NCBI GenBank assembly: GCA_017303675.1 | Contig: JAFLBX010000002.1 | Coordinates: 1-64,000, forward strand | DNA length: 64,000 nucleotides | Source: Ignavibacteria bacterium | GTDB taxonomy: Bacteria; Bacteroidota; Ignavibacteria; Tepidaquicellales; OLB5 | Direction of reading: 5' to 3' | Part shown: positions 51,383 through 63,864 of the stretch, one piece after another | Layout of the letters: every line of letters starts with the position of its first letter | Numbering within the stretch: the stretch's first letter is position 1 | Notes under the pieces: model-generated | Told to the model about the DNA's origin: nothing | The model's database searches: none | Seen by the model: only the letters and a program-made list of their open reading frames with translations | Program-made: the position numbers and the translations under genes

Positions 51383-51456
51383 GCACCCGTAGCTCAACTG
51401 GATAGAGCATCTGACTACGGATCAGAAGGTTTGGGGTTCGACTCCCTACGGGTGTA
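51383..51456 (+). tRNA. tRNA-Arg (anticodon ACG)
   Basis: Acceptor stem GCACCCG pairs with CGGGTGT (51449-51455; first pair G-T), discriminator A. D-arm AGCTCAACTGGATAGAGCA. Anticodon stem TCTGA / TCAGA with loop CTACGGA, giving anticodon ACG (reads CGU and, when A34 is deaminated, CGC/CGA). T-arm GGTTCGACTCC. CCA is not encoded. Confidence 0.95.
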
Positions 51457-60234: not shown

Positions 60235-60395
60235 AACTTTTTCTTTTACTTGATGCTAAAATAAATAAATATTCACTAATGTAAAAGTGAGTAGCGGAAT
60301 TACAGAATTTTTAACAACTTTGATCCAAAAAATCATTTTTTCATACCTGCCAAATGCACTTAAATTAAAAATTCTATTGCATATTTTTATAATAT

Positions 60396-61169
60396 ATGAA
60401 AACAGTAGATGTACAATTTAAAAACACCCGCGGATTCAATCTTGCAGGGAAAATTGATATGCCGTTTAATGAACATATTAAACATTTTGCAGTTTTTGCT
60501 CATTGTTTTACGTGTTCAATGGAGCTTAAAGCAATATCAAATATCAATAAAATACTGACAAAACACGGTATAGCAGTCTTAAGGTTTGATATGACAGGGA
60601 TTGGCGAAAGTGAAGGCAGATTTCCGGACAGCAATTTTACTACCCAAATTGATGATCTATACTCAGCTGCAGAATTTTTAGGTAAAAATTATTCATATCC
60701 TGAATTGCTAATTGGTCATTCACTTGGCGGAGCTGCTGTATTATTTGCCACGAATCAAATAGGATCAGCTAAAGCGCTTGTTACAATCGCATCACCTGAA
60801 GAGCCGGCAAATCTTGCTGTTAAGCTTAAGAGAACAAAAGACCGCTGTATAAAAATGGGTGTTGCTGAAACTGAAATAGGAGGAGTCAAATTCAACTTTA
60901 AGCCGCAGTTCTTTAAGGATATTGAAAGCTATAACGCAGCAGAGCTGCAAAAAGGAATTCACCTGCCATACCTCGTATTGCATTCAACAGTTGATACTTA
61001 TTCAGATATAAGTAATGCATATACTTTATATAAACGGGCTAATGAGCCAAAGAGTATAGTTTCACTTGATGATATTGATCATTTAATGCTTAAAAAAGAG
61101 GATGCATCTTATGTGGGTGAAATTATTGCCGCCTGGGCAGGCAAATACCTTAATGCAAATAACAAATAA
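60396..61169 (+). CDS. Alpha/beta hydrolase (OsmC-associated type)
   Basis: 257 aa, no signal. VFAHCFTCSMELKAISNI (oxyanion block), FDMTGIGESEG, the nucleophile elbow LIGHSLGGAAVLFA (Ser), IASPEEPANL, and the late His in DDIDHLML with Asp in STVDTYSD. This subfamily is often fused to an OsmC domain elsewhere; here the OsmC part is absent. Substrate unknown. Confidence 0.85.
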   Translation: MKTVDVQFKNTRGFNLAGKIDMPFNEHIKHFAVFAHCFTCSMELKAISNINKILTKHGIAVLRFDMTGIGESEGRFPDSNFTTQIDDLYSAAEFLGKNYSYPELLIGHSLGGAAVLFATNQIGSAKALVTIASPEEPANLAVKLKRTKDRCIKMGVAETEIGGVKFNFKPQFFKDIESYNAAELQKGIHLPYLVLHSTVDTYSDISNAYTLYKRANEPKSIVSLDDIDHLMLKKEDASYVGEIIAAWAGKYLNANNK

Positions 61170-61274
61170 CAAATAGCAAATTGTAATCAAGTATACATTT
61201 AATTTGGCAATTGATCCTTCCTTTTCGTACTTCGCATTCTAAAGTAGGATTCCCGTTCAGGATTGGGCAGCAAT

Positions 61275-61308
61275 AAAAAACCCGGAAGCAATAAATTACT
61301 TCCGGGTT
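61275..61308 (-). terminator. Rho-independent terminator of the RNA candidate
   Basis: 10-bp perfect stem AACCCGGAAG / CTTCCGGGTT with 10-nt loop, followed on the minus strand by TTTTTTATT. No minus-strand protein gene lies close enough to need it. Confidence 0.85.
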
Positions 61309-61465
61309 CAGCATGAAAAAAATCGGCAAACTGCGGGTTTCTAAAGGAGAAAACAATACAGGAGGAAATCTGCAAGAAGCCAGACTTCGCGTGCTGTATA
61401 CCAGGAGGCAGTTTAGGTACACAGCGATTTGTTTCTTTTGGTGAAACGAACCTGCAGCCTGCCAA
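61275..61465 (-). ncRNA. Candidate structured non-coding RNA with own terminator
   Basis: On the minus strand a 12-bp closing stem pairs TTGGCAGGCTGC (61465-61454) with GCAGTTTGCCGA (61334-61323; three G-U pairs). It encloses a 10-bp hairpin GCTGTGTACC / GGTATACAGC (61425-61416 with 61402-61393; one G-U). Each G-U pair would be an A-C mismatch on the plus strand, so the minus strand is the RNA. A strong hairpin AACCCGGAAG / CTTCCGGGTT (61279-61288, 61299-61308) with T run ends it. TATAAT is at its upstream edge. Size and architecture would allow a 6S-like regulatory RNA, but I do not recognise a known family. Confidence 0.6.
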
Positions 61466-61534
61466 TTATAATAACACAGTGTGAACTAAAATAATTTCAA
61501 CCCTTCAATTTTTTTTCCAATTTCAGCGATTTGT

Positions 61535-61566
61535 TTTGAATATCTAATGAAATTTCGGTATATTTA
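61535..61566 (+). promoter_or_regulatory. Bacteroidota-type promoter of permease gene
   Basis: TTTG (61535-61538), 20 nt, TATATTTA (61559-61566; last base differs from TAnnTTTG). The ATG is 8 nt further, so the mRNA would be nearly leaderless. Confidence 0.5.
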
Positions 61567-61574
61567 GCAAAATT

Positions 61575-62660
61575 ATGCAGGAAAATGAATTTTTTAAAGA
61601 TAAAGATAAGTTTTCTGAAGCCGAAAAACAAAGGGCTTCTCATAGCTTATGGTATTATTCCTGGATAAGATTTAAAAGAAATAAGCTTGCAATGGCGGGT
61701 TTATTTACCCTGATTTTTTTGATATTAGTGGCGATTTCAGCAGGAATTTTAGCTCCATTTGACCCTAATGATCAGACACTTGAATATGCCACAAAACCTT
61801 CCGGCTTTAAAGGAAATGTTCTTGTAAAAAAAGCGCTGGATGGTACTGATTTTATCCCTATAAAAAACATCAAAAATGTTACTAATGATTCAGTTTTTTA
61901 TTCAGATTATACCGGATCTGAAAGATCAATAGCTAAAAATGAGTTAATTGAAGGAACTGAAAAAGACTGGCATATTGAACCGGAATATCTGCTTGGTACT
62001 GATAGATACGGCAGGGATATTTTAAGCAGGCTTATCTACGGAAGCAGGATCAGTTTATCAGTTGGTGTAATTTCCGAAAGTATTGCAATTTTTATTGGTG
62101 TTTTCCTCGGAGCGCTGGCAGGTTATTTCCGCGGTAAAACCGATGCTGTAATAATGTGGTTTATAAATGTAGTCTGGTCTTTCCCTTCGATATTATTTAT
62201 TATTGCATTATCTGTTGTGCTTGGTAAAGGTTTTTGGCAGTCTTTTGTTGCGATCGGATTAACAGGTTGGGTTGATATTGCCAGGATCGTACGCGGACAG
62301 TTTTTTTCTCTGCGTGAAACTGAATACGTAGAAGCAACACGCGCACTGGGCTACAGGCCTACCAGGATAATTTTCAGGCATATTCTGCCTAATACTATTG
62401 GACCGATCATAGTAACGGGTACTGCGGGATTGGCAACATCAATAATTTTTGAAGCAAGCTTAAGCTTCCTTGGTCTCGGAGTTCAGCCGCCAACAGCCAG
62501 CTGGGGGCAGATGGTTTTCGACGGGTATAAATATATTGTTGCAGGAACAAACTACGGACTGGCTCTTTATCCTTCACTTGCAATAATGATCACAGTTTTT
62601 GCTGTCAACCTGATAGGTGACGGTTTAAGGGATGCATTTGATCCTAAGATGAGAAGATAA
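61575..62660 (+). CDS. ABC transporter permease, DppC/OppC-like
   Basis: 361 aa. OppC_N segment SLWYYSWIRFKRNKLAMAG with helix 1 (about 40-60), then an extra periplasmic stretch of about 70 residues (70-137) not usual in DppC (about 300 aa). The transport domain follows from LLGTDRYGRDILSRLIYGSRISL with EAA loop EYVEATRALGYRPTRIIFRHILPN. It forms half of the membrane channel for oligopeptides or similar. Partner permease, ATPases and binding protein are not in this window; dprA follows. Confidence 0.88.
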   Translation: MQENEFFKDKDKFSEAEKQRASHSLWYYSWIRFKRNKLAMAGLFTLIFLILVAISAGILAPFDPNDQTLEYATKPSGFKGNVLVKKALDGTDFIPIKNIKNVTNDSVFYSDYTGSERSIAKNELIEGTEKDWHIEPEYLLGTDRYGRDILSRLIYGSRISLSVGVISESIAIFIGVFLGALAGYFRGKTDAVIMWFINVVWSFPSILFIIALSVVLGKGFWQSFVAIGLTGWVDIARIVRGQFFSLRETEYVEATRALGYRPTRIIFRHILPNTIGPIIVTGTAGLATSIIFEASLSFLGLGVQPPTASWGQMVFDGYKYIVAGTNYGLALYPSLAIMITVFAVNLIGDGLRDAFDPKMRR

Positions 62661-62721
62661 AATTTTTCCGGCTTTAAACCCTGAATACAAATTATCAGCA
62701 CATATTTTTCTTTTTTAACAG

Positions 62722-63864
62722 ATGAATGAATTAAAACACTTATTATTCTTAACTCAAATTGAAGGACTTGGCGCAATCCGCACCAAAAGGCTGATAGATA
62801 AGTTCGGCAGCGCAGAAAATGTGTTTAATGCTGCGCCATCGGAGCTAGCCGAAATTGAGAATATAAGTGATAAAACAGCAATGCTTATTCTTAATTCTTA
62901 TTCAGGCTTTAAGCAGTTTGATGATACGTTTGATGAATATATTTCAAAAGCCGATAAGCTGAACATCAGCATTTTACCGCTTTCAAGTCCGGAATATCCT
63001 GATCTGTTAAAAAGAATTTACGATCCGCCGGTTTTGCTTTACCTGCGCGGCAAACAATCACCTGATAAGCTCATCAATTCAATTGGTATTGTTGGCACCA
63101 GGAAACCAACTGATTACGGGAAAAAAATGGCTGAAAAATTTGCTGAAGAGCTTTCCTCAGCAGGAATTGCTGTTGTAAGCGGTTTTGCCAGAGGAGTGGA
63201 TACTTACGCTCATAAAGCTGTACTGAAAAATAAAAATGCTTCAGCAATTACTGCAGCGGTTTTTGGCTGCGGTGTAGATATGATCTATCCACCGGAAAAT
63301 AAAGCTTTGTATGATGAAATGCTGGAAAAAGGATTGTTGATATCCGAATACGAAATATCAGCATTTCCTGATGCAGTGAACTTCCCCAAGCGAAACAGGA
63401 TAATAAGCGGCCTTTCATTTGGAACAATTGTTATTGAAAGTGATATTGATGGAGGCGCGTTGATAACAGCGCGTACCGCTCTGGACCAATCGAGAGAGGT
63501 GTTCGCAGTACCGGGCTATATTACTTCTAAAGTAAGCCATGGCACAAATGCTTTGATAAAAAATGGACAGGCTAAGCTGGTTGAAAATCTTGATGACATT
63601 TTAGTCGAGATATCCAATAAGCTGGTTGGCTTGAAACTTAACAGCGTAAATGGTAATTCAATATCTGTAAACGAAGTACCGGAGCTAAACGGCAATGAAA
63701 AGCTGGTTTATGACACATTTTTGATGAATCTGGAGCCAATTCATATTGATCTTATATCAGAGAAATCGGGATTGAATATATCAGATTCATTGGTCACATT
63801 GCTTAATATGGAATTCAAAGGTATTGTGGAGCAGCTTCCGGGAAAACGATTTAAGCTGAGCTAA
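62722..63864 (+). CDS. dprA: DNA-processing protein DprA
   Basis: 380 aa. An N-terminal helical/SAM-like part, then the Rossmann DprA core with IGIVGTRKPTDYG, AVVSGFARGVDTYAHKAVL, FGCGVDMIYPPENKALYDEM, FPKRNRIISGLSFGTIVIES and DGGALITARTALDQSREVFAVPG. A winged-helix C-terminus (about 320-380). It loads RecA on incoming single-stranded DNA during transformation. It ends 10 nt before rpoN. Confidence 0.96.
   Translation: MNELKHLLFLTQIEGLGAIRTKRLIDKFGSAENVFNAAPSELAEIENISDKTAMLILNSYSGFKQFDDTFDEYISKADKLNISILPLSSPEYPDLLKRIYDPPVLLYLRGKQSPDKLINSIGIVGTRKPTDYGKKMAEKFAEELSSAGIAVVSGFARGVDTYAHKAVLKNKNASAITAAVFGCGVDMIYPPENKALYDEMLEKGLLISEYEISAFPDAVNFPKRNRIISGLSFGTIVIESDIDGGALITARTALDQSREVFAVPGYITSKVSHGTNALIKNGQAKLVENLDDILVEISNKLVGLKLNSVNGNSISVNEVPELNGNEKLVYDTFLMNLEPIHIDLISEKSGLNISDSLVTLLNMEFKGIVEQLPGKRFKLS

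Follow-up and report, generated by a model that had tools for sequence, protein, structure and literature searches.

A conserved structured RNA gene of Ignavibacteria with three anti-Shine-Dalgarno modules and its predicted mRNA partners

The locus and the structure of its RNA

The spacer between two protein-coding genes of an Ignavibacteria bacterium (assembly GCA_017303675.1, contig JAFLBX010000002.1) contains a gene for a structured small RNA (sRNA), found in a window of 64,000 nucleotides (nt), positions 1 to 64,000 of the contig, and described here with its conservation and its predicted mRNA partners. The flanking genes encode an alpha/beta hydrolase (60396-61169) and an OppC-type permease (61575-62660); both are on the plus strand (Table 1). 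A preliminary description of the locus had pointed at a long closing stem, a 10-bp hairpin and a terminator with a U run on the minus strand, and all three were recovered where it had placed them.

The minimum free energy of the minus strand from 61465 to 61275 was -73.3 kcal/mol, against a mean of -43.1 kcal/mol for 200 dinucleotide shuffles (z -6.64), none of which folded as low; the plus-strand reading of the locus was less stable (z -4.30). Four non-Watson-Crick pairs were read from the fold, of which the closing stem holds U2-G, G7-U and G8-U and the 10-bp hairpin the fourth. As previously claimed, all four are G-U on the minus strand and would be A-C on the plus strand, and the gene was therefore assigned to the minus strand. 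Its terminator is the single terminator-like site within 60300-62800 and, with both neighbours on the plus strand, belongs to no minus-strand protein gene, again in concordance with the earlier proposal.

Table 1. Features of the sRNA locus (positions in the window) and loci of the predicted target family elsewhere in the genome
Feature	Positions	Strand	Remarks and basis
sRNA gene	61275..61465	minus	about 185-190 nt, ends approximate; fold z-score, covariance-model match, covariation
Closing stem, 5' arm	61449..61465	minus	fold and covariation
Closing stem, 3' arm	61323..61339	minus	fold and covariation
Further hairpin	61447-61431	minus	fold
10-bp hairpin displaying module A in its loop	61393..61425	minus	fold and covariation
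Third hairpin, GAAGUCUG/CAGAUUUC, immediately ahead of module B	61365..61388	minus	fold and covariation
Intrinsic terminator hairpin, then U run	61278..61309	minus	terminator scan and covariation
Invariant 30-nt stretch GAUUUCCUCCUGUAUUGUUUUCUCCUUUAG	61341..61370	minus	identical in 14/14 aligned genomes
Module A CCUAAACUGCCUCCUGG, anti-Shine-Dalgarno loop	61401..61417	minus	predicted partner coxIII ribosome-binding site; loop accessibility, coxIII duplexes
Module B CCUCCUGUAUUGUUUU	61350..61365	minus	predicted partner lipoprotein P1 (and P2); target motif search, duplexes
Module C UUUUCUCCUUUAGAA	61339..61353	minus	predicted partners lipoproteins P3, P2 and other exported proteins; motif search, duplexes
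U-rich linker AUUUUUUUCAUGCU, conserved	61310..61323	minus	alignment; unpaired 0.86-0.99 where scorable
Promoter-like block TGAAATTATTTTAGTTCACACTGTGTTAT, then TATAATTGG	61471..61499	minus	alignment; promoter function inferred
Five-member P1 family, own genome (G000)	C1:1163050-1163454, C2:820741-821082, C2:1238205-1238555, C1:623769-624104, C1:1146136-1146459		outside the window

The alignment of this spacer in related genomes, which had been suggested as a check, was performed with MAFFT in a structure-blind manner across 14 genomes and revealed covariation: at least one double-sided compensatory change was present in 20 of the 41 consensus pairs, a number reached by none of 500 shuffles. 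Pairing was retained in 94.3% of the pairing cells vs 83.8% in the shuffles, all of which fell short of the observation on every one of five measures, and it fell to 31-49% when the partners were slid by 1-3 columns. Double-sided pairs were distributed over the closing stem (6/13), the 10-bp hairpin (6/10) and the terminator (7/11); the third hairpin was mostly invariant, with one such pair. The structure of the sRNA is under selection.

A covariance model (CM) built from 14 sequences detected one strong copy per genome in 15/15 genomes of the family, all metagenome-assembled genomes (MAGs) of Ignavibacteria, the match in the genome under study lying at 61274-61465 (E 1.5e-41). This distribution, together with the covariation in 20/41 pairs, excludes a chance origin of the structure. 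No convincing CM match was obtained among 29 sister-family genomes. Two weak matches (G007:C75 and G032:C137) were set aside as having neither CCTCCTG nor TCTCCTTTA. In DNA searches the element was detected in every one of the 13 genus genomes, with 71-98% identity outside the own genome, and partially in two additional genera of the family; the exact 27-mer TTTCCTCCTGTATTGTTTTCTCCTTTA was encountered in 14 GTDB species, each represented by a MAG with the title Ignavibacteria, Chlorobiota or Chlorobi bacterium. Phage records gave no match to the element.

The gene order hydrolase-sRNA-permease was retained in most genomes, with one side deviating in L166, L171 and L169 (G014). Location in a mostly conserved spacer is what might be seen with a cis-acting leader or 3' untranslated region (UTR) element of an adjoining gene; nevertheless, the neighbours are on the plus strand and the structure, G-U pairs and terminator on the minus strand, the minus-strand reading frame is not conserved, and the RNA core persists despite an altered hydrolase side in L166 or an altered permease side in L169, which makes such an element very improbable. 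A small protein encoded on the minus strand is less probable still, to the point of being negligible: two overlapping open frames do span the locus there (the open frame having 88-90 codons), but in relatives they are disrupted, both by stops and by changes in length not divisible by three, no Pfam family reached its cut-off, and the substitutions track base pairing. Conservation, covariation, a promoter-like block, mostly kept synteny and the lack of coding potential thus bear out the earlier proposal of a lineage-specific regulatory RNA gene on the minus strand.

Its other suggestion, a 6S-like RNA, was not supported. Searches with Rfam 15 covariance models, also proposed at that stage, returned no family above the gathering threshold at the sRNA, and at a relaxed threshold only sub-threshold, chance-like matches, with no 6S-type model among them. 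In its length (about 185 nt) and its long closing stem the sRNA is like 6S and 6S-Flavo RNA (RF00013, RF01685), and no RF00013 match elsewhere in the own genome accounts for a 6S gene. However, the consensus is multibranched and not a rod with a single central bubble, its conservation is concentrated in exposed anti-Shine-Dalgarno stretches, and the element is confined to one family; we regard an RNA polymerase-binding, 6S-like RNA as highly unlikely. We place the sRNA in a new RNA family, within a kind of RNA that is already known. It should be added that the sole Rfam match in the window was a tRNA gene (51383-51456, plus strand).

Conserved unpaired segments and the upstream block

The most conserved parts of the sRNA are largely unpaired, namely the invariant stretch GAUUUCCUCCUGUAUUGUUUUCUCCUUUAG and the loop CCUAAACUGCCUCCUGG of the covarying 10-bp hairpin, the latter identical in 11 of the 14 aligned genomes, and it is the stems that vary. 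These two segments contain three anti-Shine-Dalgarno (anti-SD) motifs with differing flanks, designated modules A, B and C. In the ensemble, the loop core CUGCCUCCU of module A had an unpaired probability of 0.99-1.0. The linker AUUUUUUUCAUGCU gives a U7 run directly behind the closing stem, resembling a second terminator, and is a candidate site for a helper protein.

Upstream of the gene, the strict pattern TGAAATTWTTTT-N-GTGTTAY was present at the sRNA locus in 11 of 13 genomes of the genus, and its only other matches were two chance-like sites. The pattern is almost exclusive to the sRNA gene and therefore no shared regulon was seen; the block may represent a promoter for an alternative sigma factor. 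Separately, the region upstream of the tRNA gene has a TAAATTTG box, similar to the TAnnTTTG -7 element of Bacteroidetes and unlike the conserved block upstream of the sRNA.

Predicted mRNA partners

The complement of module B followed by a start codon, ACAATACAGGAGG-N-ATG, matched once in each of 8 out of 10 genus genomes searched (reversed control, 0), and every match precedes the same gene, encoding a lipoprotein of 135 amino acids (aa) that we term P1. In the own genome the site (G000:C1:1163452) lies away from the sRNA locus, and AACAATACAGGAGG is present in the P1 orthologues of 12 of 14 genomes. P1 is one of the five members that its family, marked by an LYFCE motif, has in the own genome (Table 1); the proteins are short and secreted or lipoprotein-like, with an LYF[CV]EEY-type motif and WDYI.F, and their similarity to DUF3244 is weak and sub-threshold. 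Members occurred in almost every genome of the order that was searched, against 0/15 genomes from elsewhere in the class.

Two paralogues, P2 and P3, were picked by homology and not by complementarity. P2 carries TAAAGGGGAAAATAATTAAGGAGA, which pairs modules C and B simultaneously, and P3 carries TTTTCTAAAGGAGAAAAC, which pairs module C; like P1, both have protein starts resembling signal peptides or those of lipoproteins. Duplex energies in the own genome were -29.0, -28.3 and -24.6 kcal/mol for P1, P2 and P3, correspondingly. Among 375 background genes, taken from a 400-kb sample of the own genome plus the window and given an upstream search space equal to that of the targets, 0, 0 and 1 equalled these duplexes. 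As a side observation, TAAAGGAGAAAACAATACAGGAGG, the plus-strand reading of 61341-61370, resembles the P2 leader TAAAGGGGAAAATAATTAAGGAGA (L087) across 24 nt, and the seed may have been derived from an inverted copy of a P2-type leader.

Might these matches be a by-product of anti-SD-like letters in an RNA that chiefly titrates a protein or binds the ribosome as a mimic of the 16S tail? The three CUCCU-type motifs are as in the 3' tail of 16S rRNA, and any SD-bearing mRNA pairs the sRNA to some degree. Against this stands the P1 duplex, with 17 contiguous pairs running well past the SD core. Moreover, when the B-C stretch was shuffled with the anti-SD cores fixed, P1, P2 and P3 were matched in 2, 66 and 0 of 5000 shuffles, and all three together in 0/5000; the invariant 30-nt stretch also exceeds the length that an SD mimic needs. 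We therefore hold an RNA that acts mainly by such titration or ribosome binding to be improbable and return to pairing with selected mRNAs.

For module C, the complement combined with a start codon was matched 36 times in 13 genomes (reversed control, 0). Those with assigned loci fell into 12 gene families, 11 of which were classed as exported-looking on a simple hydrophobicity criterion, compared with 35% of all background genes and 44% of the SD-bearing ones (p ~8e-4 versus the latter). One of the predicted partners is a likely outer-membrane protein (G000:C2:938277), whose module C duplex of -20.7 kcal/mol was equalled by 5 of the 375 background genes.

Module A pairs the ribosome-binding site AACCAGGAGGCAGCUUUAUG of coxIII, encoding cytochrome oxidase subunit III, at -25.9 kcal/mol in six genomes and -25.2 in G008; in the own genome the duplex was -21.1, with 2/375 background genes as low. 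The pattern AGGAGGCAG-N-ATG had many matches, several of them within coding sequence; among them coxIII recurs and pairs beyond the core, and two other recurring proteins, of 114 aa and ~300 aa, show the core only. The 114-aa protein (L253, L259, L261, L263; G000:C2:532720 and relatives) has a recurring AGGAGGCAGGC-ATG site with a module A duplex of ~-22 kcal/mol and is a weaker target candidate. A control ribosome-binding pattern, AAAGGAGAT-N-ATG, had just 13 sites in the own genome, several with no gene behind them. In G014 the loop reads AUUAAUGCCUCCUUGG, and the lipoprotein UTR AAAGGAGGCAUAAUGG of the same genome pairs it at -24.8 kcal/mol vs -16.9 with the loop of the genus, a possible co-change of the two partners.

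In the same 400-kb sample and window, SD-like sites preceded only ~15% of predicted genes, so that SD-bearing targets stand out, and the SD-bearing genes leaned to exported-looking products (44% vs 33%). Ribosomes of Bacteroidia reportedly do not recognise SD sequences (PMC9976891).

Proposed mode of action and comparison with known systems

Based on the computed structure, conservation and extended complementarity of the RNA, we consider it probable that the sRNA is a trans-acting regulator that, independently of Hfq, keeps ribosomes from binding a selected set of envelope and respiratory mRNAs. Minus-strand transcription would start at a promoter of its own, located in the hydrolase/permease spacer, and stop at its own terminator; the folded RNA would display three anti-SD modules with differing flanking letters. 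B would pair with the ribosome-binding site of P1 and C with that of P3, the P2 site would engage both B and C, and loop A would pair with the coxIII site. Such pairing would mask the SD sequence just 5' of the start codon, preventing 30S binding and repressing translation. The translational block is expected because the pairing covers the SD sequence upstream of the start codon, and its position over the SD is also why we infer repression and not activation. The physiological signal might be envelope load or respiration.

Several observations weigh against this interpretation. The P1 site is lost in G006 and G009 and the coxIII site in G004, and the remaining family members of the own genome, P4 and P5, used as negative paralogues, have no complementarity to the sRNA. 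Modules B and C have an unpaired probability of just ~0.4-0.7 in the ensemble, and the gains upon co-folding were modest, -3 to -10 kcal/mol, in part because the program cannot represent pairing within a closed multiloop. The lack of complementarity in P1 homologues of sister-family genomes devoid of the RNA speaks for the interpretation, but this contrast may come partly from a lower SD use in those genomes. Since anti-SD sequences match any SD, weak extra targets are indistinguishable from background. Finally, Hfq (PF17209), the one chaperone looked for, was found in 0/13 genus genomes, with control genomes positive; any helper would therefore be another protein.

On a wider and rather speculative reading, to which we give clearly less credence, a multi-headed, Hfq-free sRNA could be the non-coding component of a stress or redox response of Ignavibacteria that has so far escaped recognition. 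Its single scaffold would carry three non-redundant anti-SD modules, through which a lipoprotein family specific to the lineage would be coordinated with the terminal oxidase, the SD-bearing genes being a regulated minority.

In the literature searched, no paper combined Ignavibacteria with small RNA and Hfq, and the small RNAs of this group are essentially unstudied. These bacteria, with no detectable Hfq, gain an experimentally tractable candidate riboregulator with structural support at the level of covariation and a concrete predicted target set, made up of the paralogous lipoproteins P1, P2 and P3 plus cytochrome oxidase subunit III. The results also bear on why a minority of genes in Bacteroidota/Chlorobiota retain strong SD sequences, some of which may persist as riboregulator targets.

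Among characterised sRNAs, NfeR1 of Sinorhizobium (alpha-r14 family) acts in trans without Hfq, masks the ribosome-binding site of its target mRNA and has three anti-SD motifs reported as functionally redundant (PMC10746234). The Ignavibacteria RNA resembles it as a putative trans-acting sRNA lacking Hfq, with three anti-SD motifs predicted to occlude the ribosome-binding sites of its targets; it differs in that its three motifs have dissimilar flanks and seemingly address different targets, belongs to another phylum and has no Rfam match. MicL, MicA and RybB, which depend on sigma-E in E. coli and Salmonella, are sRNAs that repress the lipoprotein Lpp or outer-membrane proteins (PMC6737893), and the targets predicted here include envelope lipoproteins as well. 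Those sRNAs, however, are Hfq-associated and active at ~70-80 nt, whereas here Hfq was not found and the RNA is multibranched with ~185 nt. FoxI and FoxJ of Fusobacterium nucleatum regulate envelope proteins (PMC11005410) and, compared here by description, likewise represent sRNAs with envelope targets from a phylum distant from Proteobacteria. Rfp18 of Flavobacterium is a structured sRNA whose deletion lowered two protease mRNAs (PMC9723704); at the same level of description, it has in common with our RNA several related secreted-protein mRNAs as predicted targets of one region, but its effect on the protease mRNAs is positive and the one proposed here is repressive. All of these, NfeR1, MicL/MicA/RybB, FoxI/FoxJ and Rfp18, are relatives in kind, and none is claimed to be homologous.
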